Virus record (IMG/VR): IMGVR_UViG_3300043313_000216
Coordinates: 1-23,653 of that record
Strand: one strand, 5' to 3'
From: a virus
Length of the DNA: 23,653 bases
In this document: in pieces, positions 2,014-22,472 of the stretch
How positions within the stretch are numbered: the stretch's first letter is position 1
Layout of the letters: each line of letters starts with the position of its first letter
Translations under genes and position numbers: made by a program
The notes under the pieces: generated by a model
Database searches by the model: none
Told to the model about the DNA's origin: nothing
What the model saw: only the letters and a program-made list of their open reading frames with translations

Positions 2014-4083
2014 CTAAACACCGGCAATACCAGGGTCATCCTCTAGTTCTTTGCGTCCTTTTGCGGTGATGCGGAACTTGGTTCCACGGCGTTCCAGCAG
2101 CTTCTCCTCGACCAACCCACTGCAGATCCTGAACACCTTGGACTTCTGCGGTCGACCGTTGCTGTCGAGGAAACTGCAGACTGTGGCGATGCCGGCGATC
2201 GAGATCTTGCGGTTGATGTTGATGGCGCGCAGGACGAGGCTCTCGTCGCTCTCCTGTCGCCCCTCGGCCAACTGCAGGGACAGTTCCGAAACAGGCTTGG
2301 CGACTACGGAGGGCATCAGGCGCCCCTCGGCGTCAACCACCTTGTCACTGTCGGCAACGTCAAGTTCAAAGGCAAGGGGTTCAAACTCAGGCCCCCTGAA
2401 CTTACCGAGCCAGTGCAGGGTGAGTTGCTTCTCGGCGTTGGCCCAGAGTGTCAGGTTGCCGTCGACCTCATTGAGGAAGGCTGACCCGCCCATGGGCAGC
2501 AGGTTGTCCCTAGCGGCGTTCTTGATGGGGTGGCAGCACACCAGCACGGCCGGCTTGCCGGGTAGGAAGGTCAGGCGCCGCAGCACCCTGGCGTAGGCGC
2601 CCTGCTGACTGTTGGAGTTGGTTTCGTCGCCCCTGAAGTAGGCCGCGGCGGTGTCGACAATGACCATGATCAGGTCACCGATCTCAGCCGCCGCTGCCTC
2701 GATCACGACCATCTGGGCCGCGATGTCGATTACGCCGGCCACGAACCGCATCTTGATCTTGGCGGCGTCAAAACCCCAGTAGTCGGCCAGTACCAGGAAC
2801 CGGGCGCGGATGTCGTCGGGGTTCTCGCCAGCCAGGATCAGGACGGTACCCCCCTTGACCTCCTGCCCGTGCATGGGGAGGGCGCGGGCAATCGTCTGGG
2901 CCATGTACATGGCGACGGCGGTCTTGCCGTGCCCCGTGCGCGCCGTCAGGCTGTAGAGGTATCCCCTCTGGAGTATGCCATCAATCAGATAGGCCGGAGG
3001 CGTGAAACCCGCCACGAACTGCGCCGCGGTCAGCACCAGCGGCAGCGGTTGGCCGGTGGCCGGGTCAACCTGCAGGGCCGCCTCCGGCTCGGGTTCGAAC
3101 TCCCCCGGCTTGGGCTTGGCCGCCTCCTCGGCGACCTTCGTGTCCCACTTCTTGACCGCGCGGCGCCACTTGTTGGCGAACAGGCTCGGACCCCGGCCCT
3201 CCTCCTCCAGCCGCTCGGTATTGTTTCTGGCGTCGTCGGGGAGCCGGGAGCGGGTATTGCGCTCATAGTCGGCCCACACCGCGTCCCTGTCGCTGTTGCT
3301 TGGCGGGATCGGGCTGTCGCGGCGCAGGCCGATCACGGCAGCCCACACCAGTTTGGTCATATACTCTTCGCGGCCGTCGATTTGGTTGCCGAAGGCGTCC
3401 TGTTCGAAGCCTGGGGATGCCGTGTTAATTTTTCCGGTTCCATTTGTGACACCCCCATACCGCTCGACCAGCGCCTCGATTGCCTCCAGCAGCCACTCCG
3501 GGGCGTCGGCGATCGGCACCTCCCACGGGGCGCGGCCGGGTAGCCACTCGTAATCCCGCCCGCTCTCGTGGCGGCTCGGCGGCAGCATGGCGAAGCCACC
3601 CTGGCCGCGGATGTCGATATTGATGCTGGTCTTGTTGGTCGGGGCGACCCAGTCGGCTGGCGCCCGGAACAGCTTCTGACGGCCCCCGCCGCCGGTGCGC
3701 TGCTCGACCGTCTCGATGTCCAGGCCGTTGTTGTGTAGCTCGAGCAGTCCATGCCACCAGCCCTCGGCCTCCGGCCCCTTCTGGTCGTCGAGGTCGGTGA
3801 CGAACACGTTGCCTGAGCAGCGACCGGTCAGGATACCCATGTTCTGGCGCCTGGCGTGATCCCCCGTGGGGCCGTACCAGCGATCGAAGGTGAATTGCGG
3901 GACAATCTCGTTTTGCAGTTCAGCCCATCGCTTCAGGTCGGGCATCTTCCACTGCCCGCCCTTCACGGCATCCTTGGCCGGCACCACCTGCAGCAGGTAG
4001 GCGCGATACATCACGGCCCATTCCGCCGGCGATGCGAAATCAGGATCAAAGTTGGAACGGTTGTCGTTTTCAGGTATATCCAT
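2014..4083 (-). CDS. Bifunctional primase-polymerase / RepA-like helicase
   Basis: A 689-residue replication protein. Residues about 20-210 look like a prim-pol primase domain: NMGILTGRCSGNVFVTDLDD (81-100) with the acidic DxD-type metal site, then IDIRGQGGFAMLPPSRHESG (156-175). Residues about 350-580 are a RecA-type hexameric helicase/AAA_25-like ATPase: Walker A TGHGKT (383-388), GENPDD sensor-like loop (419-424), Walker B with VIVDT (474-478), and CCHPIK (516-521). Residues about 605-680 resemble a winged helix (NGRPQKSKVFRICSGLVEEKLL). It would unwind and prime phage DNA, and lies directly beside the iteron-like array at 1802-2000. No DNA polymerase gene is visible in the window, so the phage may use host polymerase or encode one elsewhere. 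Confidence 0.88.
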   Translation of the reverse strand: MDIPENDNRSNFDPDFASPAEWAVMYRAYLLQVVPAKDAVKGGQWKMPDLKRWAELQNEIVPQFTFDRWYGPTGDHARRQNMGILTGRCSGNVFVTDLDDQKGPEAEGWWHGLLELHNNGLDIETVEQRTGGGGRQKLFRAPADWVAPTNKTSINIDIRGQGGFAMLPPSRHESGRDYEWLPGRAPWEVPIADAPEWLLEAIEALVERYGGVTNGTGKINTASPGFEQDAFGNQIDGREEYMTKLVWAAVIGLRRDSPIPPSNSDRDAVWADYERNTRSRLPDDARNNTERLEEEGRGPSLFANKWRRAVKKWDTKVAEEAAKPKPGEFEPEPEAALQVDPATGQPLPLVLTAAQFVAGFTPPAYLIDGILQRGYLYSLTARTGHGKTAVAMYMAQTIARALPMHGQEVKGGTVLILAGENPDDIRARFLVLADYWGFDAAKIKMRFVAGVIDIAAQMVVIEAAAAEIGDLIMVIVDTAAAYFRGDETNSNSQQGAYARVLRRLTFLPGKPAVLVCCHPIKNAARDNLLPMGGSAFLNEVDGNLTLWANAEKQLTLHWLGKFRGPEFEPLAFELDVADSDKVVDAEGRLMPSVVAKPVSELSLQLAEGRQESDESLVLRAININRKISIAGIATVCSFLDSNGRPQKSKVFRICSGLVEEKLLERRGTKFRITAKGRKELEDDPGIAGV

Positions 4084-4176: not shown

Positions 4177-4887
4177 TCAGCCGAAATCGTCAGCAATATT
4201 CGCCTCGGCGACAGGCGTATTGACCTTTGGTACAGGTGCCGAGCCGCCGGTCGAGGGGTAGGCGCCATTGGACTTGAGCGACGCCGTGGCCTGCGACGGC
4301 ACCACCGCCGGCCTGGCCTTGGGGACAAACACCAGATCCTTCCGTGGAGCCCAGCCACTGATACGGAACGTCGGGTGATAGTTGGTCGTTTGCCGCGCCC
4401 CGGATCCCGACTTGACCGCGGCGATCTTCTCGACCGTCAGCACCGGCAACTTGCCGGGGTTGGCATCCCTGCCCGCCAGATAATGCGGGTAGATATGCTC
4501 GATCGCCGCCAGCCACGCTTTTGATGTGCCGGCAATCTCCCGCACCGGCTCGTCGCCGCCGCAGTCGTTCGACAGCTTGAGCATGATCCGCACACCGTAC
4601 TTGTGTTGCTCGGTTGGCTGCGGCGGCACCGGATCCCCCATCCGCACCATCTGAAAGTCCGGCGCGATGCCGGGAACGAACAGGATATTGCCGACCTCGA
4701 TGTTTTCCAGATCGGCAATGAACTTGATCGTCTGGGTAATGTCGACCTCGTCGTTGATGTAATTACCGTCAGTGTCCTGCGTGCGGTCGACCCGGAAGAA
4801 CCTTCCGGCCTTGGCATTATACTTCACAACCGGGATGATTTCGCCATTGCCCGATGCCGTCTCCGGAAATCCAAATATGTTCGCCAT
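4177..4887 (-). CDS. Probable ssDNA-binding / replication accessory protein
   Basis: A 236-residue soluble protein starting MANIFGFPETASGNGEIIPV after an AAGGA ribosome site; a longer in-frame start at 4941 lacks support. The middle is beta-rich (YGVRIMLKLSND, YHPTFRISGWAPRKDLVFVP), the C-terminal 45 residues are Pro/Ala/Ser-rich, and the protein ends in ANIADDFG. A flexible linker with a short acidic, Phe-containing tip is the hallmark of single-stranded DNA-binding proteins such as bacterial SSB and T7 gp2.5, where the tip recruits partners. Its place between an exonuclease and a primase/helicase fits. I cannot place it in a named family, so the ssDNA role is inference. Confidence 0.5.
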   Translation of the reverse strand: MANIFGFPETASGNGEIIPVVKYNAKAGRFFRVDRTQDTDGNYINDEVDITQTIKFIADLENIEVGNILFVPGIAPDFQMVRMGDPVPPQPTEQHKYGVRIMLKLSNDCGGDEPVREIAGTSKAWLAAIEHIYPHYLAGRDANPGKLPVLTVEKIAAVKSGSGARQTTNYHPTFRISGWAPRKDLVFVPKARPAVVPSQATASLKSNGAYPSTGGSAPVPKVNTPVAEANIADDFG

Positions 4888-4962
4888 TTCGCATTTTCCT
4901 TTTTCGCCAATTGCGCCGATAAGGTCCGGCCGCTCGACCACTCCGGATGTCCCGGAATTGGA

Positions 4963-5691
4963 TTAGATTTTCCACGTTTCCCACGCGAACTGTCGCGCTG
5001 CGGGATCCGACCACAGGTAACTTTCCACGTCGGGCACGGTGATGCCAACAAAAAATGCCGGATCCTCCGACAATGCCATGAAGTTCTCCACGTTAATCGC
5101 CATCTGCCGCAGCGATGAACGATGCGCGGCGACGTTCTCGAGCGCGTAGCTCTCGACCTTCTTTGGCGTGACGTAGACCAGTAGCCCCGACCTGTTGCCG
5201 TTGCAATAATGCGCCACCTGCCGCGCGTGCGTCGCCTTGATCTCGGACGGCATCTTGTCGGTGGTCTTGAGATCCACCACCAGGCCATGGTGGTCCCATT
5301 CGAAATCGCTGTATCCCATGATGGGATACTGCAGCCCGTCCGGCTGCCAGGTGATCTGCGCCTGCACCCGGTCGGGGGCGCCGTACTCCCGCAACGCCTC
5401 CAGTCCGAAATTGACCATCTCCGGGATGCCGTCGCGCACCTTCTGGCGCCGGCTGTCGCCGGACAATGCGGTGAGGGCGTCGTAACGTGTCATGGCGATT
5501 TCGGTGCAGGCGGCGGCGTCGACCCACTCCTTCAGGCCATGCGCGACGCCGGCCTCCACCGCCGTGCCGCGGTGCATCTGCGGACTGCCCTGGCGCTTGA
5601 AGCCGAGAACCTTCTCGGCCACCCACATTGCCGGCGACATCGAGAACGTGTTCAGCGATGACGGCGAGTGGTGCGTAAAGTCGTTGATCAT
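4963..5691 (-). CDS. PD-(D/E)XK exonuclease (RecB/Cas4-like)
   Basis: A 242-residue nuclease probably used for recombination or end processing of replicating phage DNA. Family motifs are in order: HRGTAVE (40-46; the RG...E of motif I), IMGYSDFEWD (124-133, catalytic D129), VVDLKTT (138-144, D140 and K142 as the DxK pair) and ATHARQVAHY (153-162, the QxxxY motif). The ATG at 5691 has GGAG five to six bases upstream and overlaps the preceding stop by ATGA. Length fits phage RecB-type exonucleases. No iron-sulphur Cys set like that of Cas4 is visible, so a plain RecB-like exonuclease is favoured. It precedes the SSB-like gene, a common exonuclease plus ssDNA-protein recombination pair. Confidence 0.85.
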   Translation of the reverse strand: MINDFTHHSPSSLNTFSMSPAMWVAEKVLGFKRQGSPQMHRGTAVEAGVAHGLKEWVDAAACTEIAMTRYDALTALSGDSRRQKVRDGIPEMVNFGLEALREYGAPDRVQAQITWQPDGLQYPIMGYSDFEWDHHGLVVDLKTTDKMPSEIKATHARQVAHYCNGNRSGLLVYVTPKKVESYALENVAAHRSSLRQMAINVENFMALSEDPAFFVGITVPDVESYLWSDPAARQFAWETWKI

Positions 5692-5897
5692 GCAATCTCC
5701 AAAAATTTGCAAATGTCATCGAAGTCGGCTTCGACGTAGGTGCCTTCTTCTTCACTCTCGGAGCCAAAGTAAAAGATGGTAATGCCGTCGCGATGACCGG
5801 GCTGGATTGCCGTTACCCTCGCAAGATTGACTACAGTTGGTTTTTCATCGTTAAGACCATTGAATTTCCTGAAAAAGATTGTTTTGTCAGACGTCAT
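5688..5897 (-). CDS. Small acidic hypothetical protein (69 aa)
   Basis: Begins MTSDKTIFFRKFNG and carries VVNLARVTAIQP and ITIFYFGSESEEEGTYVEAD, then a helix DFDDICKFLEIA. The pattern (short strands, an acidic loop, a terminal helix) suggests a small alpha/beta fold. Both ends are fixed by ATGA overlaps, with the VRR-NUC gene upstream and the exonuclease gene downstream; longer in-frame starts would run through the nuclease gene. Wedged between two nucleases it may modulate one of them, but that is only suggested by position. Confidence 0.6.
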   Translation of the reverse strand: MTSDKTIFFRKFNGLNDEKPTVVNLARVTAIQPGHRDGITIFYFGSESEEEGTYVEADFDDICKFLEIA

Positions 5898-6253
5898 TTC
5901 AACACTCCCCATAGTTTCAGAATTTTCTCTGCCTCCTCGAATGATCGGGCAATGGCGTATGGATGCCCCAGCGCGAGGCAGATCTGCTGGAAATTCTTCT
6001 GCTCGATCGACTGCCGGCCGGTTTTGGTTTTCATCTCCATCCATGCCATCCTGCCGCCGGGGAGCATGACGCCGAGGTCGGCGAGGCCGGAGCGCAGGCC
6101 CTCGCGCTTCATCCTGGCGCCCATGCGCAAGGTGCGGATACCGGCGTTGGGGATCGAGAAGCAATAAAACGCGCCCTTCTTGCCCATGATCTCGAGCAGC
6201 TCGATCACCATCACCTGCAGCTTGTGCTCCTCGTCGCCGCGCTTCTTGATCAT
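5894..6253 (-). CDS. VRR-NUC domain nuclease
   Basis: A 119-residue single-domain nuclease of the VRR-NUC group within the PD-(D/E)XK superfamily, whose members cut branched DNA such as Holliday junctions or flaps. Visible signature: FSIPNAGIRTLRMGARMKREG (about 32-52), SGLADLGVMLP (55-65, D59), MAWMEMKTKTGRQS (69-82, E73 and K75) and the following Gln-rich helix (EQKNFQQ). The start at 6253 overlaps the GcrA-like stop by ATGA; upstream in-frame sequence belongs to the shadow of that gene. In phages such stand-alone enzymes usually act in recombination or in resolving DNA before packaging. Confidence 0.88.
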   Translation of the reverse strand: MIKKRGDEEHKLQVMVIELLEIMGKKGAFYCFSIPNAGIRTLRMGARMKREGLRSGLADLGVMLPGGRMAWMEMKTKTGRQSIEQKNFQQICLALGHPYAIARSFEEAEKILKLWGVLK

Positions 6254-6672
6254 GCGTACTGCTTCCGCCCAGGATGGTAGGCCAGGTCGCAGTGTTTGCT
6301 GCAGTAGACCTGGCCTACCTCCTGCGGCTGGCCGCAATACAGGATGTCGGGCCAAGTGCCGATCGGCCACTTGCAGTCGACGTAGTCCCGCAGCTGATAG
6401 ATCGTGATCAGGCCGGCGTGCTCCGGGGGGCGCGGCTTGGGCTTGGGCCGCGGCTTGTAGACGTATTGCCGGATCTTGCGTGGCCGTGGATCCCGTGGCG
6501 GCATGGCGAGCCTCCTGCTTTTCCCGATACAGGCGTTCTTGGTGAGGGTGATGTTGAACTCCTTCGACAGCATCGGAGCGATCGTGCTGAACGGGTAGTT
6601 CTCTGGCGCCTCCAGCAACTGCTGAAGGCGCTGGGTCAGGCCCGGCGTGTCGTTCCAGAGTGAGGTACTCAT
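6250..6672 (-). CDS. GcrA-family transcription regulator (phage-encoded)
   Basis: A 140-residue homologue of GcrA, the alphaproteobacterial cell-cycle regulator that binds sigma-70 RNA polymerase and acts at promoters carrying CcrM-methylated GANTC. The N-terminal DNA-binding part has the family pattern TKNACIGKSRRLAMPPR (44-60; compare TRNAVIGKxHRLGL). A basic Pro/Lys linker (62-83) follows, then the conserved C-terminal block: CKWPIG (100-105), PDILYCG (108-114), VYCSKHCDLAY (122-132), with C100, C113, C124 and H127 or C128 as possible metal ligands. The usual MSWTDE start is altered to STSLWNDTP, and the first helix is longer. The gene is coupled by ATGA overlaps on both sides within the early operon. 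In the phage it may redirect host RNA polymerase or cell-cycle genes (inference). Confidence 0.87.
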   Translation of the reverse strand: MSTSLWNDTPGLTQRLQQLLEAPENYPFSTIAPMLSKEFNITLTKNACIGKSRRLAMPPRDPRPRKIRQYVYKPRPKPKPRPPEHAGLITIYQLRDYVDCKWPIGTWPDILYCGQPQEVGQVYCSKHCDLAYHPGRKQYA

Positions 6673-6926
6673 GGCGAGGGGTTCTCATGGGCCTGGCCGT
6701 TGAGGAACTTCTTGTGCGCCGTCAGCACGCCTTCGCCAAAGGTATGCAGCCGCTTTTCCATGTCGGAAAGCAGTTTGCTGTATTCGTTAACCTGGGCGGT
6801 GATGCCCTCGGACAATGTATTGACGCTGTCTTGCAAATTCTTGGCCTCGGCGACGTTGTCGTCCGCGGCTTTCTTCAGCGACGCAATCAGCTGCTCGCCG
6901 AGGTCTATAAAACTGTGCTTGGTCAT
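6669..6926 (-). CDS. Coiled-coil hypothetical protein (85 aa)
   Basis: MTKHSFIDLGEQLIASLKKA begins an almost fully helical protein with long heptad-like stretches (NLQDSVNTLSEGITAQVNEY, LLSDMEKRLHTFGEGVLTA). No cysteine, membrane segment or catalytic motif. Start follows GAAGG at suitable spacing; the stop overlaps the GcrA-like start (ATGA). A role as oligomerising partner of the neighbouring regulator is possible only by position. Function unknown. Confidence 0.6.
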   Translation of the reverse strand: MTKHSFIDLGEQLIASLKKAADDNVAEAKNLQDSVNTLSEGITAQVNEYSKLLSDMEKRLHTFGEGVLTAHKKFLNGQAHENPSP

Positions 6927-6957
6927 GGGTGCCTTCGTTTGGTTGGAGTGGTGCCCC

Positions 6958-7013
6958 CCGGAACCGAGCGGGATAGCAAAGTTCCGGGAGGACTAGCCGC
7001 GCGGATGGGCTAG
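6958..7013 (-). promoter_or_regulatory. Leader with two hairpins between the HTH gene and the early operon
   Basis: In this 92-bp gap (6927-7018), CCGGAAC (6958-6964) pairs with GTTCCGG (6981-6987), and CTAGCC (6993-6998) pairs with GGCTAG (7008-7013). Neither is followed by a U-run in the direction of transcription. They may pause or stabilise the leftward RNA after the HTH gene; no function can be assigned from sequence. Confidence 0.35.
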
Positions 7014-7018
7014 GGGGC

Positions 7019-7231
7019 TTATGCCCGCGCGGTGTTGGGTTGCGGCAGGTTGGCGAAATCATTCGCCGTTACCTGCCCGTTTGTTGCCTTGTGGATACGG
7101 GTCAGCACGTCGGGGTGCGGGAACCGCTCGCCGAGGCGGTAGCGGCCGACCGTGTGGCGGCTGACACCGAGCTTGCGGGCAAACTCCGCGTCGGTCATGC
7201 CGTTGATGTCTAGGTATGATGCAAGTTTCAT
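7019..7231 (-). CDS. HTH (XRE/Cro-type) repressor-like protein
   Basis: A 70-residue DNA-binding protein. Residues 12-40 form a helix-turn-helix: MTDAEFARKLGVSRHTVGRY, with the AxxLGVSxxTV core, then RLGERFPHPDVLTRIHKATNG. Small single-domain proteins of this type act as Cro-like repressors in alphaproteobacterial prophages. I chose the ATG at 7231, not the in-frame start at 7312, because the longer version would cover an operator and promoter and adds a low-complexity N-terminus. The start lies 11 bases from palindrome O1, so autoregulation is likely. It is the first gene of the leftward early transcript. There is no dimerisation or autoprotease domain, so it is more like Cro than lambda CI. 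Confidence 0.82.
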   Translation of the reverse strand: MKLASYLDINGMTDAEFARKLGVSRHTVGRYRLGERFPHPDVLTRIHKATNGQVTANDFANLPQPNTARA

Positions 7232-7237
7232 CCGAAA

Positions 7238-7266
7238 AGCCTGCCACCAATTTGGTGACACGTCAA
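7238..7266 (-). promoter_or_regulatory. Putative leftward promoter (HTH gene)
   Basis: On the minus strand a -35-like TTGACG (7266-7261) is followed by a 17-base spacer made of operator O1 and then CAGGCT (7243-7238), a poor -10 match. Transcription would begin at or within a base or so of the ATG at 7231, implying a leaderless mRNA; there is also no good Shine-Dalgarno before that ATG. The weak -10 makes this tentative. Confidence 0.4.
7242..7260. promoter_or_regulatory. Operator O1
   Basis: TGCCACC-AATTT-GGTGACA, a 19-bp palindrome with one mismatch, matching the same consensus as O2 (TGTCACC-N5-GGTGACA). It lies in the spacer of the putative leftward promoter and just upstream of the HTH gene. 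Confidence 0.75.
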
Positions 7267-7300
7267 CTGAAATTATTTTAGGGTTGCGTGAAGATTGTTG

Positions 7301-7329
7301 TTGCACTGTCACCAGAACGGTGACATAGT
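7301..7329 (+). promoter_or_regulatory. Putative rightward promoter of the small-gene operon
   Basis: TTGCAC (7301-7306), a 17-base spacer, and CATAGT (7324-7329; four of six matches to TATAAT). The spacer is filled by operator O2. The predicted start near 7336 leaves about 26 bases of leader containing the AGGA ribosome site of the first small gene. Confidence 0.55.
7307..7325. promoter_or_regulatory. Operator O2
   Basis: TGTCACC-AGAAC-GGTGACA, a perfect 7-5-7 palindrome of 19 bp. It starts directly after the -35 hexamer of the rightward promoter, in the same register as O1 on the other side. A repressor bound here would block RNA polymerase. Confidence 0.8.
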
Positions 7330-7361
7330 CTGATCACACCAGACGAACAGGAACCCTGACA

Positions 7362-7520
7362 ATGACCAAGTTGCTCACCGCCTACCGCGCCGCCCCGACC
7401 CCCGCCAACGCCAAGAAGCTGGTTGCCTACGTTCGCAAGCACTCCTTCACGCTGTGCTTCATGGATGCCGCCGGCATCGCCACCCTCGCCGAGGCCGAGC
7501 GCACAGTCGATGCCTCCTAG
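7362..7520 (+). CDS. Small hypothetical protein, first gene of rightward operon (52 aa)
   Basis: Reads MTKLLTAYRAAPTPANAKKL then a short strand-like FTLCFM and AAGIATLAEAERTVDAS. Preceded by AGGA at about nine bases and lying 30-odd bases after the predicted rightward start point, so it would be the first protein made from this promoter. Part of it (DAAGIATLAEAE) resembles DATGIAQSLEAS in the next gene. No known family. Confidence 0.6.
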   Translation: MTKLLTAYRAAPTPANAKKLVAYVRKHSFTLCFMDAAGIATLAEAERTVDAS

Positions 7521-7540
7521 CCCCACCCCACCGCTCTCAC

Positions 7541-7565
7541 GCCCGGCGCCGAAAGGCTACCGGGC
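7541..7565 (+). other. GAAA-tetraloop RNA hairpin between two small genes
   Basis: GCCCGG (7541-7546) pairs with CCGGGC (7560-7565), and inside it GCC-GAAA-GGC (7548-7557) forms a second stem closed by a stable GNRA-type loop. No U-run follows, so it is more likely an mRNA-stability, processing or partial-termination element than a simple terminator. Confidence 0.5.
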
Positions 7566-7602
7566 TTGAGGCAGTAGTGAAACCCTGACAAGGACAAAGC
7601 AG

Positions 7603-7782
7603 ATGACCACCGAACCAACCCGCACCGCGACCTTCGACCCCAGCCGTTATGTCCTGAAATATTGGACCTCACCGAACCAGTTTTGCGAACGGCCATGCCA
7701 AACGCTGGCGCAAGCCTACCGCTTGGTAGACGCCACAGGCATCGCTCAGTCGCTCGAGGCATCTGTATGGGGCCGCAAATGA
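7603..7782 (+). CDS. Small hypothetical protein (59 aa)
   Basis: MTTEPTRTATFDPSRYVLKY is followed by SPNQFCERPCQTLAQAYRLV and a C-terminal DATGIAQSLEASVWGRK. Ribosome site AAGGA eight bases before the ATG. Its leader repeats AACCCTGACA found before the first small gene, and its end shares a D-A-x-G-I-A motif with that protein, suggesting an old local duplication. The stop overlaps the next start by ATGA. Function unknown. Confidence 0.6.
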   Translation: MTTEPTRTATFDPSRYVLKYWTSPNQFCERPCQTLAQAYRLVDATGIAQSLEASVWGRK

Positions 7783-7877
7783 CCGACATCACCGCCGTCC
7801 TCGCCGCCGCCATCACCGTGGCGCTGCTCGTCTCAATCTACGCCCTGATCATCACTGAAAGGACACCCCCGCTGTGA
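7779..7877 (+). CDS. Tiny single-span membrane protein (32 aa)
   Basis: The reading frame gives MTDITAVLAAAITVALLVSI and YALIITERTPPL: one hydrophobic helix (about residues 5-24) with a short polar tail, so an inner-membrane peptide. The ATG overlaps the previous stop and the TGA overlaps the GTG of the next gene, which argues that it is translated. Phage peptides of this sort may act in lysis timing or superinfection exclusion, but nothing here is specific. Confidence 0.5.
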   Translation: MTDITAVLAAAITVALLVSIYALIITERTPPL

Positions 7878-8071
7878 AGTATCCCCGCACCGTCTACTTT
7901 CCCGAGAACGACCGCCGCGTTGTCGTCAACATCATGCCCGGCCCCGGCGCCAAGTTCTCGGCAGTCCTCGCCGACCCCGGCCCCGACTATGGCATCCTCG
8001 CGTGGGGCCTCGGCGACACCGAGCTGGCGGCGATCGCCGACCTCGCCCGCGAACTGGAGGGCGCGGAGTGA
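7874..8071 (+). CDS. Hypothetical protein (65 aa)
   Basis: Starts with GTG in a GTGA overlap with the membrane peptide gene. The sequence (MKYPRTVYFPENDRRVVVNI, then GAKFSAVLADPG, and a C-terminal helix DTELAAIADLARELEGAE) suggests two or three strands followed by a helix. No cysteine or membrane segment. No recognised family. Confidence 0.58.
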   Translation: MKYPRTVYFPENDRRVVVNIMPGPGAKFSAVLADPGPDYGILAWGLGDTELAAIADLARELEGAE

Positions 8072-8250
8072 ACCGGGATCTTGCCGAGGAAGCCGCTGCC
8101 ATGATCATGAAACTAGCCGACCGGTTAGAAGAAAAAATGGCCCGCATCGCGGCGCTGGAGGCGGCGCTGCGCAAGATTGACGATACGTCATACGACTACA
8201 ATGCCGTGAAGATCGCCCGCGGCGCCCTCACACCGGAGCAGGAGAAATGA
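8068..8250 (+). CDS. Helical hypothetical protein (60 aa)
   Basis: GTG start at 8068 in a GTGA overlap; an internal ATG at 8101 is possible but would break the coupling. It has a coiled-coil N-terminal half (MIMKLADRLEEKMARIAALE) and ends RKIDDTSYDYNAVKIARGAL, a tail often seen in small tailed-phage proteins with IAxxAL endings. Function unknown. Confidence 0.6.
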   Translation: MNRDLAEEAAAMIMKLADRLEEKMARIAALEAALRKIDDTSYDYNAVKIARGALTPEQEK

Positions 8251-8594
8251 GAAACTACCTTCTTATCGCAATGCTGCTCGCCACGCCGGCCACAGCGGCT
8301 GACCCCGACACCCTCACCCGCGAGGACCGGGCGCTGTATCTCAAATGCGCCCACGTCCTCGGCGGTAGTTCCAACGCCATGATGTTCATGGGGGCGGTCG
8401 ACCTGTCGACTTGGTCGCGGGAGGAACTGCAGCTGTGCATCGAGCCGCGGCCGTTCGCCGAGGCGCCACCCCCGAAGCCGGTAAAGACCGCCGCCGTGGC
8501 GCCCGAGCCGACGCCGGAAAGCAACATCTGCACCCGTAAGGGGTTGAGAAAGGTTACGACCAGGGGAGGCAAGAGTTGGAGGTGCAGAAAGTGA
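8247..8594 (+). CDS. Secreted/periplasmic protein with four cysteines (115 aa)
   Basis: Residues 1-18 (MRNYLLIAMLLATPATAA) are a clear Sec signal peptide with an ATA-A cleavage site. The mature protein has a helical part with C34 and C64, a Pro/Ala linker (70-90), and a basic C-terminal knuckle from NICTRKG to SWRCRK with C95 and C113. It would act in the periplasm, where the two Cys pairs may form disulfides or bind metal. Start overlaps the previous stop by ATGA. Secreted small proteins in phage early or moron operons can alter host envelopes, but this one is unassigned. Confidence 0.65.
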   Translation: MRNYLLIAMLLATPATAADPDTLTREDRALYLKCAHVLGGSSNAMMFMGAVDLSTWSREELQLCIEPRPFAEAPPPKPVKTAAVAPEPTPESNICTRKGLRKVTTRGGKSWRCRK

Positions 8595-9200: not shown

Positions 9201-9270
9201 ATGCAACGCCGAGCGCCAGCGATGACGCTCCACGGTGCATTCCGCACCATCCTCTGATCAGGAGACTACC

Positions 9271-9921
9271 ATGCGCAGACTACTGTTAGCAGCCACTGCT
9301 TTAATTGCATTAGCGGCACCAGCCAGTGCCGACATTATTCTTGACACAAACGGCCTCGGCGGCACCGGCAACAACGTGGTGTTCAACCGCGTGTTCAATA
9401 CCAACACGGTTCTCGGCACATTGAACGGCCAGAACCAGGAGGTAGTTCGTTTTACCGATCGATCCGGCAACGGTGGTTTCACCGCGACCGCCGGGCAGAA
9501 CGGCAACGACATCAAACTGTTTAACACCTTCGATCTAGACATCACGGTGTTCGACCGCACCAACATCACCCAGCTTGGCGTCACCCGCGAGGTGTTCTCT
9601 CTGGTGGGTAGCGGCACGGTGGCCTTCCACGTTACGGCGCTGGAAGCGGACGGTACGTTCAAGACCTTCAACTTTGCCGACACTCTGAAGAACGGCCAGA
9701 ACGGCTACGACTTCACCGCCATCAAGGGTGAGAAAATCTGGGACATGGATATCGTCCTGGGTCCGAACACCAACGTCACGGCGTTCGAACACTATCGTAT
9801 CGATGTGACGCCGAATGTCGGCGCCGTACCGGAGGCCAGCACCTGGATGATGCTATTGGCAGGCTTCGCCGGCCTCGGGCTTATGGCCCGCCGCCGCAGG
9901 GACACTTTCCGAGTGGCTTAA
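9271..9921 (+). CDS. PEP-CTERM (PEPxxWA-type) exported protein
   Basis: 216 residues. A Sec signal peptide (1-20, ALAAPASA cleavage) leads an Asn/Thr/Gly-rich, probably beta-sandwich body (21-180). The C-terminus has the tripartite PEP-CTERM sorting signal: VPEASTWMM (186-194, the second P of PEP replaced by A), a hydrophobic segment LLAGFAGLGLMA (195-206), and an RRRR cluster (207-210). Known family behaviour is recognition by a host exosortase and display or release at the cell surface, often linked to extracellular polysaccharide. I take the ATG at 9271 with AGGAG upstream (9260-9264), not the in-frame start at 9235. Base use looks slightly more AT-rich than its neighbours. This is host-type cargo inside a phage operon; I do not recognise the body domain. 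Confidence 0.85.
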   Translation: MRRLLLAATALIALAAPASADIILDTNGLGGTGNNVVFNRVFNTNTVLGTLNGQNQEVVRFTDRSGNGGFTATAGQNGNDIKLFNTFDLDITVFDRTNITQLGVTREVFSLVGSGTVAFHVTALEADGTFKTFNFADTLKNGQNGYDFTAIKGEKIWDMDIVLGPNTNVTAFEHYRIDVTPNVGAVPEASTWMMLLAGFAGLGLMARRRRDTFRVA

Positions 9922-10347: not shown

Positions 10348-11666
10348 AATGTGGCCCAAACCCCCCAAACGCCGCCCATTCTGACGCGGGTGTATCTGAC
10401 GGTTAACGGGTTCACTAAACTAAATGCGGTGCCACCCATGAACGTGCGAAATGCCGCGAACGTGCCGGTATAGTTCATGACCATGGAGCCGAGGGCCATC
10501 CAAATTGTATTGTCGGCAGTGTCGCGCCACAGCGACCCGTTTTCAATAAAACGTGTCGGCGGTGCCGGTACCCAAGGCTGAACAGAAGTTGTCGATAGCG
10601 CCCAACAACCAGGGACAACGCTCGCGCGAGCAGACGCGAACGTCCCTGTGTAGTTAATGAGATGGAAGTTGGTGACTACCCAGGTTGTATTGTCGGCAAC
10701 GTCGAGCGCCAGAGTCCCGACCTCATACGCTTGCGTTGGTGGACCGCCAAACCATGCCGGAGCTGTTGTTCCAGCGATATAAGCAGTCAGATCACGCAGC
10801 TCCACCACCAGATTGTTGAGATCCTGCCCATAAACGATGCCGTTAAAGGCATGCCCGGCGGCAGGCGAGTTGGTCGTTCCTGTAGCCGTCGAATAGATCG
10901 GTCCCATCGCAGGTATCGAATTGTAGTCGGTGATGAGCGTGCCGTTCGTGACGCCTACAGCGGACACAACTAAGTTGGGGATCGTCACTGCGCCAGTGGC
11001 ATTGTTGATCGTGATGGGGCGTAATGCGTTGGCAGCGCCGTCTGGGGTGCCGTTGTTGGTGAGCAAAAAGGACGATTGCCCCGCGTTGTTGTTCAGGATC
11101 AGGCTATAGTCGCTGGCCCGCATGCGAATGAGGTTGCCGTCGCCGGTAACCTTGAACTCGCCGGGGACGGCCAATACCCCCGTCATGGTGTCGCCAGCCC
11201 GATTTACTTTGGGGGCGACGGCCGCGCTGATTTCACTCGTTAAGGCGGTTGCAGTGTCGACCCACGCGCCCCACACCCCCGCCACCTTGCGCCTGACGTA
11301 CAGGGCGCCGTCGACCTGATCGCGGGCCTCGACCACGATGTCATTGCTGCCGGCCATGTACACAACGCCGTAAAAGGCGTGCGCGTTCGGCGCGCCGGTG
11401 GCAGCCGCTAGGCTATAGAACGATCCTGCCAGCCAAGTATGGCTGTCGAAATTAGAGACTAACTGCCCGGCTTTTTCCGCGCTGAGATTGGTCAGTGCGC
11501 CGTCAGCGGATGTCGCCCCGGTGCCGCCGGCTATGATCGGCCGCGCCGCGTTGAGGTCGTTCTTCACGTCGTCGGTGAAGCCATTGTAGACCACGCTCTC
11601 GATCGTGGTGCCCTCGATCACGTCGGGGAACGGCCGGTAATACTGTTGGGATCCATCGCGCGGCAT
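10344..11666 (-). CDS. Tail fibre / receptor-binding protein
   Basis: 440 residues. The N-terminal part (1-40) probably attaches to the tail (YYRPFPDVIEGTTIESVVYNG). RPIIAGGTGATSADGALTNL (42-61) is the collar motif typical of tail fibres, and residues 73-137 resemble a pyocin-knob domain ending YVRRKVAGVWGAW. A shaft-like beta section follows (VNRAGDTMTGVL and on, about 154-235). A second knob-like repeat starts near 247 but is interrupted after VVELRD (287-292) by two tandem copies of a module of about 65 residues, and resumes with TRVRMGGVWGVWATL at the C-terminus. Start at 11666 overlaps the previous stop (TAATG) with GAGGAG upstream. It would bind the host surface. One of only three GANTC sites in the window lies in the inserted module. 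Confidence 0.82.
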   Translation of the reverse strand: MPRDGSQQYYRPFPDVIEGTTIESVVYNGFTDDVKNDLNAARPIIAGGTGATSADGALTNLSAEKAGQLVSNFDSHTWLAGSFYSLAAATGAPNAHAFYGVVYMAGSNDIVVEARDQVDGALYVRRKVAGVWGAWVDTATALTSEISAAVAPKVNRAGDTMTGVLAVPGEFKVTGDGNLIRMRASDYSLILNNNAGQSSFLLTNNGTPDGAANALRPITINNATGAVTIPNLVVSAVGVTNGTLITDYNSIPAMGPIYSTATGTTNSPAAGHAFNGIVYGQDLNNLVVELRDLTAYIAGTTAPAWFGGPPTQAYEVGTLALDVADNTTWVVTNFHLINYTGTFASARASVVPGCWALSTTSVQPWVPAPPTRFIENGSLWRDTADNTIWMALGSMVMNYTGTFAAFRTFMGGTAFSLVNPLTVRYTRVRMGGVWGVWATL

Positions 11667-13237
11667 TATGGTTGCTCCTCGGGCTGCATGACGCCGCGTA
11701 GTCGCAGCTGCTCCAGCACTTGATTGGTAATCGCGTTGCGACTGCTTTCCGCGAAATTGTTGAGCCCTGGGCCAGCTACGATCGGAGCCTGCGCGGCCCA
11801 CTCGCGGTACAGCGGCGAGCGCATCGCCATCTTGCCCTCCAACTCGCGGGCGTGGTTCATCGTCATGCGGTTACTGATGCCCTTCGCGGCGGCACCTGCG
11901 ACCGGGATAGCCGCCCCGAGCAATGGCGTCAGATCACCGGTCGCCAATGCAGCAGCGACGCCGCCGCCTCCTGCCGTCAATCCGCCGATGCCGCGGGCAT
12001 AATTGCCAGCGGTGCGCAAGGTGTTGGCGACCGCCTCGCCGCGCGTCACGTCGCGAATGTCGGCCTTTTCTTCTGGGTTGTACCACTTGCCCTCGCGGCT
12101 CTTGGGATTGAGCAGTGCGACTAGCTTTTGCCGATAAGTGTTACCCGCGTTCTGGGCAGAATTGGCGGTGTTGAAGCGATCATCCGCGTACTGGTTGGTG
12201 TTCTCGACGGTTTCGGTGCGCTTGCCGGCACGGTAGTCGCCGCGCGCGTCGTTGATGAGGCTCGTGATACGGTTCCGCTGGGCATCACTACCGCTGGCCT
12301 GCGCGATCGGCGACGCCATGAAGCGATCAAGAAAGTCGCGAACCTGGCGAGCGCCGACCTCGTTGACACCAGTAAGTTTCTGACGAAGGGCGTCGATATC
12401 TTTAGGGGTAACGGTTGGTGCGTCTGGATCGGCTTGCAGCCTGCCGGAACGGGCATCGTTGATCGTGTGCCAAACGGTTTTTGACTTGTCTGGATCGGTG
12501 ATCCCGTAAAGGCGTTTCTCCAGTGCATCCATTGCCCCCCTGAACTGGTCGGTGCGGTAATCTATCGGCACAGAGTGCGTATCGGTATAGCGTTGAGAGG
12601 CCGACTGCTTCAACCTGGCGGCGTCCGGCACCGGGGCAGTGTTGCGCGGCGCCACGTCGGCGAACTTGCCGAAGGGCGCCCCGAGCGCAGCCCCGAACGC
12701 GCCGCCGACTAGCGCATTGTTAGCGTAATCCGAGGGGTTGCCGGAGTAGGTGTGGCCGGCAGCTTGCGCCCCGCCGATCAGCCCGCCCTCGAGGCCGTAG
12801 CCGGCCACCCTGGCCGCAACCCCAGGAAGCCCCTTGGCGGCCCCGCCCAGCGCCGCGGCGGTGCCCCGGCCTATGGCGCCGGCTCCGGGTACAAACGCCT
12901 GCGCGGTGCCTCCGGCCACGTCTCCGACCACAGACAAATAGGGACTGCGCTCCCGGCGCATTGCACTGTCGGCGACCGCCTGGTCGACGCCGGCGGAATA
13001 GCTTGGCGCGTCTCCCTGCAGGGCGCGCTGTACGCCCTCCAGCCGATCACGCATGCCGAGCGAGAACGTGTTGGATGCGGGCTTCATAAAGTCAGCGACA
13101 TTGCCCATCAGCGTCGCTGGCGGCGGCGCATTGGCGGGCGCCGGCAAGAACGGGTTGCCGGAGATCGGCACCTGCGGCGGCGCCACTACCGAGGGGCGGG
13201 GGTCGTCGCTGTCGAGAAAGGGGTTGCGCTCTGCCAT
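11666..13237 (-). CDS. Gly/Ala-rich internal (ejection-type) virion protein
   Basis: 523 residues. The N-terminus is Pro-rich with NPFL repeated at 5-8 and 28-31. Residues about 103-190 and 400-450 are Gly/Ala-rich hydrophobic segments with GxxxG-like spacing, resembling membrane-inserting stretches in phage ejection proteins. The centre is charged and helical, with many Asp and Arg residues (DALRQKLTGVNEVGARQVRD). In podoviruses such proteins sit in the capsid and enter the cell envelope with the DNA. It follows the transglycosylase gene directly (TGATG overlap), and both begin MAE(R/Q)NP. No enzyme motif seen. The role is inferred from composition and neighbours. Confidence 0.55.
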   Translation of the reverse strand: MAERNPFLDSDDPRPSVVAPPQVPISGNPFLPAPANAPPPATLMGNVADFMKPASNTFSLGMRDRLEGVQRALQGDAPSYSAGVDQAVADSAMRRERSPYLSVVGDVAGGTAQAFVPGAGAIGRGTAAALGGAAKGLPGVAARVAGYGLEGGLIGGAQAAGHTYSGNPSDYANNALVGGAFGAALGAPFGKFADVAPRNTAPVPDAARLKQSASQRYTDTHSVPIDYRTDQFRGAMDALEKRLYGITDPDKSKTVWHTINDARSGRLQADPDAPTVTPKDIDALRQKLTGVNEVGARQVRDFLDRFMASPIAQASGSDAQRNRITSLINDARGDYRAGKRTETVENTNQYADDRFNTANSAQNAGNTYRQKLVALLNPKSREGKWYNPEEKADIRDVTRGEAVANTLRTAGNYARGIGGLTAGGGGVAAALATGDLTPLLGAAIPVAGAAAKGISNRMTMNHARELEGKMAMRSPLYREWAAQAPIVAGPGLNNFAESSRNAITNQVLEQLRLRGVMQPEEQP

Positions 13238-15468
13238 CAGCCGCCCCTCGCCTTCTTGCGCGCCAACCGCTCAATCCGCGCCAATTCCAGATCCGCGGCG
13301 CCTGGGCCGTAGGCCTCATCGAATTGCGCCCGCACCTTGGCTGCCTGAGTAGGGTCGGCCTGCGCATCCGTCAGCATCTTGATGTGCGAGCCTGGCCCGG
13401 TCGGTCCGTGGCTGCTGCGGTAACGCAATTCGGCAGGCTCGCCGGAGAGGTAATGGTCGACCTGTTCCTCGTAACTGTTGATCTTGCGGTGGTTGATCTC
13501 GGCGGCCCGGTCCATGATGGTTTTAATGGTTTTCATCTGGAAATTCGGATCGGTGGCCTGGATGCCCTGCGCGATCTTCACGTCCGCGTCGGACACCTTG
13601 CCGCCGACACCGTTGATGGTTTCGATAGCCTCCGTAAGTCCAGACTTCAGAGCGGCCTGCATGATCTCGGTGTTGGCGGCGAGGTTGCCCTTCATACCAT
13701 TATTAAAGGCCCAATCGGCGAATTTCGCCTGGGCGATCTTCATGTTGGCACCATAGCCGGTGATGACGCCGTCGTTGATGGCCTTGCGTGCCAACTGTTG
13801 CGCGCTTTGAGCCTTGATGGCTTGGTCGACACTGGACTTGTCTTTGTCCATGCGCGCGTAGAACTTGTCGGGATCTTCGCCGGTGCGCACCTTGATACGG
13901 AGATCTACAGCCTTGCTGGCTAGTTCCTGACGCGATTTTTCTTCTTCTGTGATCTGCTTATGGGCGCCGGACTTTTGTGCCTCTTGTAGTTTTAACGCCT
14001 CGTCACGCTGTTTCAGTTTGTCTTTGTAGACATCCAGGTTGCGTGCATCCTCGAATTGGCGCTTCGCCGTCTCCTGGGCGATGATCTGCTTGGCCGGCCC
14101 GGTGACATATTCGTTGTGCGGATTTCGGCGCAGTTCCTCGTAGGCGCGCTGTTCTGGCCCCGACATCGGAGTTTTGGGCGGGATCTGCGGCTCCGGGCCA
14201 ACATTCATAATGTAGCCGGCTGGCGGCACTGCAGGCTGTGCCTGCGCCACCTGCGGCGGTGCCGCCGTGATCGGCCTGGCCGGCGGTGCCGACCTAACGG
14301 GGAAACCAGTCGCCGACGGCGACGGGGAGCCGTCGAACGCCATTATCGGGGCGTCGACGGGCGGCGTAGGGTTTTGTTGCGGACCTCCTTGGGCCGTGAC
14401 CGCAGCCGCTATGGCATCGCGCGGGTTCACCGGCCGCTCCGGCATGCCGTAGTAGCCCTTGATCGCCGCGGCGGCCTGCTGCGGGCCTGCGGAGGGCGGT
14501 ACGTTGTTGAGGGCGAGGTTGCGTGGGGTGGCATTGCCGGTGCCGGTCAGCATGTTTGCTGCCGTTCCGGCACCCTGCTGGTGCGCCAGCGCCAGGTCAG
14601 CCATGGTCGGTGGCCGCTGCAGCCGGCGCTCCAAGGTCGCCGCGTTGTCGTCGGTGAATTGCCGGAAGGCATCCGCCGACGCCATGTCGTCGTCTGGGTT
14701 GGCGAGGCCGTACTGTCGGGCGGTGCCGGGCACAAACTGAAACAGGCCGCGGGCGCCGGTGCTCGACACCTCGCCGGGGCGAGCCTGCTCTGCCGACCCT
14801 GTCTGCGAGGTGTAGGCCTGCATGTCGGGATTGTTGGGGTAGGCCCGCTCGGCGGCGGCCTGCCCACGGGCGGTGCCCTGCCGCTTCATGCCAGCCTGCG
14901 CGTCGATCAGATTGTAGCCGCCGTCCGTCGGGCTGGCGACGCGGGGAGGCGCTGCCGCCGGCGGCCGTGCCATGGCGCGCGGGTCCAGCATCGACGCCGG
15001 CTGCTCGGTCGGTAAAGCAAAACCGGGCACCGACTGCTCCCGCTGCGGCATGAACAAGGCCGACGCCGGTTGCTCGCCGGGCGGCGTGGTGACCAGTGGC
15101 GGCGCCGGCTGCACGTCCACCGGAGCCGGTGCCGGCACGATCGCGCGCTCAATGGCGGCGACGGCAGGCTCCACAGCGGCTGCCGGGGCGTAGGGTACGG
15201 CGGCCGGCGAAGCCCCGGCAATGCGGTCAGTAGCCGCCCGACCCTGCGCCTGATCCGCCAGATCCGCCTGCCCCATCTCGCGCGTAATACGGCGCTCGCG
15301 GAAGGCGTCGCCGAGTGCCGCGATGCCCTCGCCGAGGTTCTTCGGCGCGTTGCGCTTGTTCGTCAGCATCGCCAGCGCAATGCGCTGCCGCAGCTGCTGA
15401 TTGATGTTGGGGTCGTTCTGGTTATAGATGAAGGACTGCAGCGCCTCCAGCGGGTTCTGCTCTGCCAT
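13237..15468 (-). CDS. Virion protein with lytic transglycosylase (SLT-like) domain
   Basis: 743 residues. The N-terminal 180 are helical then Pro/Ala-rich. Residues about 185-345 form a soluble lytic transglycosylase-like domain: SSTGARGLFQFVPGTARQYG (235-254) is the GLxQ core, then ADLALAHQQGAGTAANML (290-307). A candidate catalytic Glu is E227 in GSAEQARPGE, one residue closer to the core than usual. A second Pro-rich stretch leads into a long charged helical C-terminal half (KQRDEALKLQEAQKSGAHKQ and on). It would cut peptidoglycan locally during DNA entry. Together with the Gly/Ala-rich neighbour it makes up a probable ejectosome. Confidence 0.8.
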   Translation of the reverse strand: MAEQNPLEALQSFIYNQNDPNINQQLRQRIALAMLTNKRNAPKNLGEGIAALGDAFRERRITREMGQADLADQAQGRAATDRIAGASPAAVPYAPAAAVEPAVAAIERAIVPAPAPVDVQPAPPLVTTPPGEQPASALFMPQREQSVPGFALPTEQPASMLDPRAMARPPAAAPPRVASPTDGGYNLIDAQAGMKRQGTARGQAAAERAYPNNPDMQAYTSQTGSAEQARPGEVSSTGARGLFQFVPGTARQYGLANPDDDMASADAFRQFTDDNAATLERRLQRPPTMADLALAHQQGAGTAANMLTGTGNATPRNLALNNVPPSAGPQQAAAAIKGYYGMPERPVNPRDAIAAAVTAQGGPQQNPTPPVDAPIMAFDGSPSPSATGFPVRSAPPARPITAAPPQVAQAQPAVPPAGYIMNVGPEPQIPPKTPMSGPEQRAYEELRRNPHNEYVTGPAKQIIAQETAKRQFEDARNLDVYKDKLKQRDEALKLQEAQKSGAHKQITEEEKSRQELASKAVDLRIKVRTGEDPDKFYARMDKDKSSVDQAIKAQSAQQLARKAINDGVITGYGANMKIAQAKFADWAFNNGMKGNLAANTEIMQAALKSGLTEAIETINGVGGKVSDADVKIAQGIQATDPNFQMKTIKTIMDRAAEINHRKINSYEEQVDHYLSGEPAELRYRSSHGPTGPGSHIKMLTDAQADPTQAAKVRAQFDEAYGPGAADLELARIERLARKKARGG

Positions 15469-16866
15469 CTATGCGGCCCTCAGTATGCTGCCCATGACCC
15501 GTTCGGGGTAGATCCGCTTGCTGCCGTCCGCGCCGGTGGTGACCGCGCTCTTGTTGATCCGCTCGACATCCTGCGCCATCGGGCCGACATGGCGCTCTGC
15601 CTCGCCCTTGTAGGACCACTCCGAGATGGGCAACTGCTTGCGCTTGCCGTCTTGGCCCGCCGCGAACACCGTCCCCATCGGCACGATGTTCTCCTTGGCG
15701 CGCTCGTCGGACAGGATGCTGGCACCGGCACCGAGAATGCCGCCCATGGTCGACTGCCAGTTCTGGTTCTGGGCCTGATAGTTGCCCATCTGCTGGTTGA
15801 AATTTTGATTGATCAACCCACCGATGTCGGTGGTGGCGATCTGGCTGCCCGGCGTATTGATCCAGTTCGGCGACTGCACCTGGCTGCCTGACATCAGCGA
15901 GGTGATCTCGTTGATCGGCTGATTGCGGGCGGCGTACTGCTCCTGCAAATAGGCGTTGCGGGCGGTGTTGGAGGCGTTGAAGCCGCTTTGCGCCTGCGCC
16001 AGCTGCTGCGCCAGGCCAGCATTGCCGAAGGCGGCCTGCGCCGCGTTCTGGGTGAACTGCTGCCCTTGACCGGCATTGGCGAAAGTGCCGCGCCCCAGTT
16101 CCTGCTGGTACTGCTGCCCCTGCGCGGCGTTCTGGAAGGCGGCCAGCGAGCCCGCCATCTGGTTCATGCGCTGCTGCTCGGAGCCGGCCTGCCCGACCGC
16201 GGCGAACCGGGCGTCATTGGCCTGCCGGTTGTAGTCATCCATGGCGCTGGCGTAGGCCTGGCTGCCGTACCTGATGCCCTGGTCGGCTAGGCGCTGCTCG
16301 ATGTTGCCGCGCTCGCGCTCCAACTGCGGGTTCATTCTCTGCATCAAGCTGTCTTCGACCCGCTGCCGATCGGCGCTGAAATTATCCTCGGGGCCGTAGG
16401 TCTTGGTGATGGCACCGGCGTCGCCAAACTGGGTCTGGATTGGCCCGCCAGCGTTAAATGAGGTCGCCGCCTTCTGTGCGTTCAGGATGCTGTTGGGGTC
16501 GCCGCGGGCCGGCCCGCCGCTGTTCGGGTCGAACGGCGTCGACAGCAGGCTGGAAACGCGCCCCGACTGCGCATTAGCCATCCCCGCCAAGTTGTAGGCG
16601 GCGGCCTCCTGCTGGCCCTGGATGGCCTGCTGCTGCGCCGACGGCGTCTGCGTCGCGGTGAACGACGGGATGTCGTAAACCTGCCCGGTGGTGGGATCAC
16701 TCCACTGATAGTTGCCGGTCTGGTTGTAGGTCAGGCTGCCCTGCGGCGTGACCTGGTTGACCTGGTTCAGGTATTTATTGGCGATCGCGGTGCCGACATT
16801 AGTGCCGGTCGCGGCTGCGGCCGTTGCGTATGGATTGGGCGGCTGCGGGGGGTCTGGCTTGGACAC
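15469..16866 (-). CDS. Tail-associated protein with C-terminal S74 intramolecular chaperone
   Basis: 465 residues. The N-terminus is Pro-rich (PPQPPNPYATAAA), followed by Gln/Asn/Ala-rich helical sequence. Residues about 240-295 hold three imperfect copies of a unit like AAFQNAAQGQQ (242-252), TFANAGQGQQF (261-271) and AAFGNAGLAQQL (278-289). The C-terminal LSDERAKENI (385-394) with S386 and K391, then SEWSYKGEAERHVGPMAQDV, is the peptidase S74 autocleaving chaperone domain that helps trimers of fibres or tailspikes fold. Cleavage before S386 would release about 80 residues. Starts directly after the Pro-rich gene; stop and next start are adjacent (TAGATG). Confidence 0.8.
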   Translation of the reverse strand: MSKPDPPQPPNPYATAAAATGTNVGTAIANKYLNQVNQVTPQGSLTYNQTGNYQWSDPTTGQVYDIPSFTATQTPSAQQQAIQGQQEAAAYNLAGMANAQSGRVSSLLSTPFDPNSGGPARGDPNSILNAQKAATSFNAGGPIQTQFGDAGAITKTYGPEDNFSADRQRVEDSLMQRMNPQLERERGNIEQRLADQGIRYGSQAYASAMDDYNRQANDARFAAVGQAGSEQQRMNQMAGSLAAFQNAAQGQQYQQELGRGTFANAGQGQQFTQNAAQAAFGNAGLAQQLAQAQSGFNASNTARNAYLQEQYAARNQPINEITSLMSGSQVQSPNWINTPGSQIATTDIGGLINQNFNQQMGNYQAQNQNWQSTMGGILGAGASILSDERAKENIVPMGTVFAAGQDGKRKQLPISEWSYKGEAERHVGPMAQDVERINKSAVTTGADGSKRIYPERVMGSILRAA

Positions 16867-16875
16867 GGTTAGCTC

Positions 16876-19168: not shown

Positions 19169-19179
19169 CGATCGGTCCC

Positions 19180-22365: not shown

Positions 22366-22472
22366 AGAGTTTCCTTCCTTCATTGAAACGATCAGGGGCC
22401 GCCTCCGTGGAAGGAAGGCGATTACCTACACGTCGGCGACCCCATCGTCCGCAACCTGAGTAGGCCGCAGAT

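Follow-up and report, generated by a model that had tools for sequence, protein, structure and literature searches.

A GcrA-family gene in the replication operon of a phage lineage with GANTC-depleted genomes

The locus and its GcrA-family protein

The window, by which we mean the whole 23,653-base virus contig analysed here, has no near match among deposited phages. Its minus strand carries a replication operon headed by an XRE/Cro-type regulator (Table 1), the likely start of which is the ATG at 7231, judging from conservation in a related genome (G005). Within this operon, a 140-residue open reading frame with an ATG start encodes a GcrA-like protein. The gene overlaps its neighbours on both sides, sharing an ATGA (6669–6672) with the upstream 85-residue gene and meeting the ATG (6253) of the downstream VRR-NUC gene at its own stop. 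It lies ahead of the PD-(D/E)XK, phrog_9528-like and primase-polymerase genes, in agreement with a preliminary description of this DNA, which had placed it in the replication operon.

Table 1 Features of the window discussed in the text
Feature	Position	Strand	Basis
Primase-polymerase / AAA helicase	2014–4083	-	PF09250 E 1e-19, PF13481 E 3e-20
Conserved replication-operon protein	4177–4941	-	Weak phrog_9528 match
PD-(D/E)XK exonuclease-like	4963–5712	-	PF12705 E 5e-6
VRR-NUC nuclease / Holliday-junction resolvase-like, overlaps gcrA stop	5894–6253	-	PHROG 824 E 6e-26; VRR_NUC sub-threshold
Phage GcrA-like protein, 140 aa	6250–6672	-	Pfam, AlphaFold model, dN/dS
Sigma-interacting domain, residues 86–137, CKWPIG..YCG..YCSKHC	6262–6417	-	5yix_B fold match, dN/dS
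Short basic Pro/Lys/Arg linker, residues 59–85	6418–6498	-	Translation, lower pLDDT
N-terminal HTH DNA-binding domain, residues 1–58	6499–6672	-	Modelled secondary structure, alignment with C. crescentus GcrA
Recognition helix KNACIGKSRR, residues 45–54	6511–6540	-	Alignments; cellular form RNAVIGKVHR
Five-residue insertion E38–T42, before recognition helix	6547–6561	-	Alignments of lineage, cellular and viral GcrAs
Coiled-coil-like gene, 85 aa, directly upstream of gcrA	6669–6926	-	Cluster 19 in the window, G005, G022, G029, G038
XRE/Cro-type HTH regulator, head of operon	7019–7231	-	PF01381 E 5e-6
Control region, two operator-like palindromes around TTGACG (7261–7266)	7242–7325		Sequence
Span holding the window's only three GANTC sites (10712, 20231, 21340), all inside structural genes	10712–21344		Site search

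The palindromes of the control region, TGTCACC-N5-GGTGACA (7307–7325) and TGTCACC-N5-GGTGGCA (7242–7260), are conserved in three related genomes (G001, G002 and G005), and related ones occur in a fourth (G030). Other genomes of the lineage described below have different palindromes positioned after TTGAC. The palindromes of the window flank a promoter-like TTGAC box upstream of the XRE gene, and the pattern across genomes suggests immunity-type switches in phages that have no integrase. A promoter scan, of a kind that covers alphaproteobacterial promoters poorly, found no Escherichia coli-type σ70 promoter at 5800–8300. Elsewhere in the window, a plus-strand gene (9235–9921) encodes an unusual cargo for a phage: a protein whose start resembles a signal peptide and which bears a PEP-CTERM sorting motif (PF07589, E 5e-6).

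The preliminary description had recognized a GcrA homologue, and a Pfam profile search bears this out, matching residues 88–137 in the C-terminal part of the 140-residue frame to GcrA (PF07750; E 4.4e-12; 47.1 bits, cut-off 26.9); all six of the first relatives also scored above the cut-off. When searched against the PDB with phmmer, the protein found Caulobacter crescentus GcrA (7ye1, E 1.6e-5), with the helix–turn–helix (HTH) and C-terminal segments aligning separately. The core and C-terminal motifs previously quoted for it, TKNACIGKSRRL, CKWPIG, YCG and YCSKHC, are all present in the translation. Comparison with close relatives gave a dN/dS of 0.21–0.24 for the whole gene, indicating purifying selection, which was strongest on the sigma-interacting domain (0.07–0.18) and also evident on the HTH (0.19–0.33). 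Homology and purifying selection rule out a chance open reading frame, and the gene encodes a real GcrA-family protein.

An AlphaFold model built from 14 lineage sequences (mean pLDDT 81.6) places the helices of the HTH domain at residues 12–21, 28–39 and 45–54. The three best PDB matches of this model in Foldseek were all C. crescentus GcrA (7ye1_G, 5yix_B and 7ye2_G). Against 5yix_B, the C. crescentus sigma-interacting domain bound to σ70 region 2, Foldseek gave an r.m.s.d. of 1.6 Å over 48 columns (TM 0.78 by target length) and VIA-align 1.8 Å over 46 residues (Z 6.6). Binding of the phage protein to σ70 region 2 would be consistent with this modelled fold. The HTH part of the model fits many HTH proteins in fold searches and is generic rather than GcrA-specific; separate crystal structures of the GcrA DNA-binding domain were absent from the match list, so the comparison for this domain is a generic one.

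The layout of an HTH, a basic linker and a C-terminal domain is common to the window protein and C. crescentus GcrA (PDB 7ye1, 7ye2, 5yix, 5yiu, 5yiv, 5yiw and 5z7i), as are the HTH motif T-R/K-N-A-x-I-G-K-x-x-R-L and the C-terminal motif CxWPxG..CG..YCxxH. With about 33% identity overall, the window protein is the shorter (140 against 173 residues) and has a linker of about 27 rather than 62 residues; a basic Pro/Lys linker had been noted before. It further differs from C. crescentus GcrA in being phage-encoded, in having a five-residue insertion and in belonging to a genome that is itself nearly free of GANTC.

An extended HTH in a widespread phage lineage

The insertion lies directly before the recognition helix: TKNACIGKSRRL aligns with C. 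crescentus TRNAVIGKVHRL, and the five extra residues precede the window version. About two further residues follow the conserved Trp near the N terminus, and the two changes together account for the altered N terminus of the preliminary description. All 14 aligned lineage proteins carry the insertion relative to C. crescentus GcrA, as do most of 46 viral loci, but none of 31 cellular GcrAs drawn evenly across alphaproteobacterial genomes. The same 14 proteins retain the first Trp, three residues of the recognition helix (Thr, Gly and Arg) and six of the sigma domain (C, P, C, G, C and H). Because the phage lineage and cellular GcrA have much the same recognition helix, the protein may still recognize GANTC and do so on host DNA, although the insertion in the HTH leaves an altered DNA target possible.

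In a maximum-likelihood tree, the lineage GcrAs form one clade opposite the cellular GcrAs (96/95 support), together with one long-branched virus from outside the lineage; the tree has no outgroup and many long branches, which limits how the placement of this clade can be read. No placement outside the GcrA family was found, and the motifs of the recognition helix and sigma domain are retained. Searched directly against bacterial genomes, the window protein found no close relative, and the GcrA profile found three weak ones.

A search of IMG/VR with the capsid protein recovered 436 relatives, the largest of about 40–44 kb. The structural genes of the window are podovirus-like (major head protein phrog_9953, phrog_6121, N-acyltransferase, amidase and transglycosylase), and the window belongs to a widespread podovirus-like phage lineage of about 42 kb. 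Its soil setting is suggested by a soil phage relative and by the setting of many contigs rather than by sample records. The host is probably a member of the Hyphomicrobiales, because, among cultured relatives, Rhizobium phage RHph_I3_18 has the closest capsid (61%) and two genomes of this order contain prophages with capsid identities of 55% and 49%. We detected no GcrA in the sequence read around these two prophages, whose ends are not mapped and one of which lies on a contig that ends nearby. Nor was a phage RNA polymerase recognized among the window proteins scanned, and the host polymerase is therefore the expected enzyme.

GcrA is retained across the lineage, being present in eight of ten near-complete genomes and undetected in G027 and G035. 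It is linked to three types of replication module: one with a prim-pol (the window, G005 and G030), one with a D5_N helicase (G016, G022 and G044) and a third type (G006, G029 and G038). In the capsid-found set, GcrA occurs in 7/9 near-complete genomes without an integrase against 1/5 integrase-bearing or prophage members, a split that is suggestive but involves too few members to claim.

Another conserved element of these phages is a hairpin on the minus strand (window positions 22384–22472), in the gap that separates the major capsid gene from the next; GACGTGTAGG and CCTTCC are invariant in it. We found 29 distinct copies, in the same post-capsid place where mapped. Across 15 relatives, seven of the eight pairs of the outer stem show compensatory changes and 97.5% of cells are paired, a value that no shuffled or slid control approached; the fold z is -4.3. 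The element has no Rfam match and looks like an undescribed structured RNA.

GcrA is also known from several other phage groups (PMC3556154, PMC6630229, PMC9437464), including a phage from coral that CRISPR evidence connects with Rhizobiales (PMC11309003). It is annotated in Agrobacterium phage Atu_ph08, Rhizobium phages RHph_X2_24 and X2_30, Caulobacter phage DMCA and Brevundimonas jumbo phages, as well as in phages recorded as infecting Synechococcus or Microcystis. In the DMCA and Ssp-JY42 proteins, the loop before the recognition helix has the same length as in the lineage. The GcrA-encoding phages with recorded Synechococcus and Microcystis hosts are L194 and L196, the latter with a capsid 39% identical to that of the window; these recorded cyanobacterial hosts may be wrong, the true ones being alphaproteobacterial culture companions. 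A precedent in gene context is gp222 of the phiCbK-like Caulobacter phages, a GcrA encoded near replication genes and proposed to act on host S-phase genes (PMC3556154). Like it, the window gene lies in the replication or early region of a phage that probably infects Alphaproteobacteria. Unlike the lineage proteins, gp222 has no five-residue insertion, and it falls outside their clade, among non-lineage viral and cellular sequences.

GANTC avoidance with and without GcrA

The preliminary description had taken the phage to lack GANTC, the site of CcrM and GcrA. The window is nearly purged of it but retains three copies (Table 1), against 87.7 (s.d. 9) in dinucleotide shuffles, and the site is absent from the examined stretches of all six first relatives. 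Pooled lineage loci hold 125 sites; the expectation from a third-order model is 1439, and no other of the 16 xyNy'x' palindromes has so low a ratio. When 14 contigs are pooled, the GANTC 5-mers come out at ratios of 0.037 and 0.044, the next lowest 5-mer at 0.45. About five loci (L042–L045 and L058) keep GANTC, and contigs G024 and G025, of about 31 kb each, have 44 and 46 sites; no GcrA was found in this subgroup, whose contigs are partial. G025 carries an integrase, unlike most of the lineage. Nine G024 proteins scanned with Pfam included no methyltransferase that might protect GANTC.

Because phages without GcrA avoid the site too, GANTC avoidance is not linked to GcrA. Three lineage members yielded no GcrA; of these, G027 has one site, and G035 and G041 (the latter a 30-kb partial contig) have none. 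In sampled stretches of reference phages, mostly 25 kb and with expectations from a first-order model, Caulobacter phage Cd1, with no GcrA annotated in the stretch, has 0 sites in 25 kb against about 104 expected; RHEph01 has 14 against 147, PBC5 26 against 127 and Colossus 38 against 143, and there is little avoidance in N4-like DSS3phi2 (131 against 167) or Stenotrophomonas phage BUCT555 (115 against 170). The Cd1 stretch (L199; GU393987, bases 1–25000) carries an RNA polymerase of its own. By the same measure, GcrA-bearing phages of other lineages, mainly of Alphaproteobacteria, range from 3 against 104 (RHph_X2_24) through 19 in 25 kb against 146 (phiCbK, here unlike the window) to 87 against 131 (RHph_X2_30). 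The earlier pairing of a nearly GANTC-free genome with GcrA is real, but on its own it does not imply an altered target, avoidance also being found in G027, G035, G041 and Cd1 and several GcrA phages keeping the site; the paradox is weaker than it was made out to be.

Two explanations for GANTC use can be set aside: GcrA as the cause of the loss, since phages without it avoid the site as well, and a phage methyltransferase of the CcrM type, since PF01555, the one methyltransferase family searched for lineage-wide, occurred in 0/50 records. Cellular alphaproteobacterial genomes also under-use GANTC (PMC3973325). We found no report of GANTC avoidance in phages in the literature searched, which is no proof of novelty. 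With the genome nearly purged of sites, phage GcrA has scarcely any GANTC to use on the phage's DNA.

Possible targets of the phage GcrA

We give a probability of roughly one half to the reading that phage GcrA attaches to host σ70 and works in trans at methylated host promoters. It would be a σ70 cofactor made early, alongside the replication genes; its C-terminal domain would dock on region 2 of the host primary sigma factor, and its HTH would direct that holoenzyme to host promoters with CcrM-methylated GANTC, so that host replication, nucleotide and division functions rise irrespective of cell-cycle stage. The phage genome, almost free of GANTC, would offer CcrM no substrate and GcrA no target, leaving the protein to act in trans. 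Such a role agrees with cellular GcrA, which docks on σ70 region 2 through its sigma-interacting domain and enhances open-complex formation where promoters are methylated (PMC7403470), and with the replication and nucleotide functions found among GcrA-regulated genes and genes reduced in a ccrM deletion (PMC3556154, PMC3973325). Gill et al. proposed trans action on the host for phiCbK GcrA (PMC3556154). Crl, RbpA and GrgA, which are unrelated proteins, likewise act through sigma region 2 and not region 4 or alpha; the phage sigma-binding proteins AsiA, Gp39 and P7 target region 4 and repress (PMC7403470).

We favour action on the host because both domains and the recognition helix are kept, the host polymerase is apparently used and GANTC is nearly absent. 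We also count for it the family and fold matches; the probable Hyphomicrobiales host; the purifying selection, most marked on the sigma-interacting domain but evident on the HTH as well; the retention of GcrA in most near-complete genomes across three replication modules; and the early operon placement with its overlap of the VRR-NUC gene. Against it, the insertion before the recognition helix could alter DNA specificity, GcrA is dispensable in some members (the near-complete G027 and G035 avoid GANTC yet have no detectable GcrA), and a lytic phage with nucleases may depend only briefly on host transcripts.

The insertion invites a tentative alternative, possible but rather unlikely, in which the extended HTH reads another, methylation-independent site in phage promoters and brings host polymerase to middle or late phage promoters, and the lack of GANTC in the genome holds host GcrA off. 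The missing GANTC leaves some room for such action on phage DNA because GcrA can bind GANTC-less DNA, one such region being known for the host protein (PMC3667746); the specificity of the insertion to phage GcrAs, their separate clade and the want of a recognized phage polymerase among the scanned window proteins point the same way. However, the recognition helix is almost identical to that of cellular GcrA, and word-enrichment analysis of intergenic regions in nine lineage genomes gave no convincing common promoter motif: the strongest enriched word is part of the post-capsid hairpin, and TTGAC-type promoters in the lineage carry genome-specific operator-like palindromes. We consider it doubtful that the extended-HTH phage GcrAs form a distinct functional class, σ70 region-2 activators at a methylation-independent phage-promoter site that would, with the GANTC purge, split host RNA polymerase into host (m6A-GANTC) and phage pools.

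The strong conservation of the sigma-interacting domain would also fit a decoy that occupies σ70 region 2, displaces host GcrA, silences its regulon and frees polymerase for phage promoters. The short linker could hinder simultaneous reach to DNA, and the GcrA-annotated protein of Rhizobium phage RHph_X2_24 keeps the sigma domain with a diverged N terminus. Such a role is nevertheless improbable, being weakened because the HTH is under selection as well; the HTH is present in 14/14 aligned lineage proteins, and a pure decoy would not need it. Recent capture of a host gcrA as cargo of little use to the phage, for which one could cite the related genes in Alphaproteobacteria and the two near-complete members without GcrA, is very improbable given the supported phage clade apart from cellular GcrA, the purifying selection and the persistence across replication modules.

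Isolated genomes with a phage-borne GcrA have been on record since 2012 (phiCbK; PMC3556154), and we found no tested function for it in the literature. New here are the separate extended-HTH clade, its persistence across replication modules and the GANTC-purged genomes. Here GcrA is a gene that a widespread lineage of soil phages conserves, in an HTH form of its own and in genomes stripped of the CcrM/GcrA site. Strong GANTC avoidance occurs in several alphaproteobacterial phages, with GcrA or without it. Enterobacterial phages avoid GATC, and GANTC avoidance in alphaproteobacterial phages is a possible analogue. The purged genomes permit a clean test, for any GANTC-dependent effect of phage GcrA should fall on the host.
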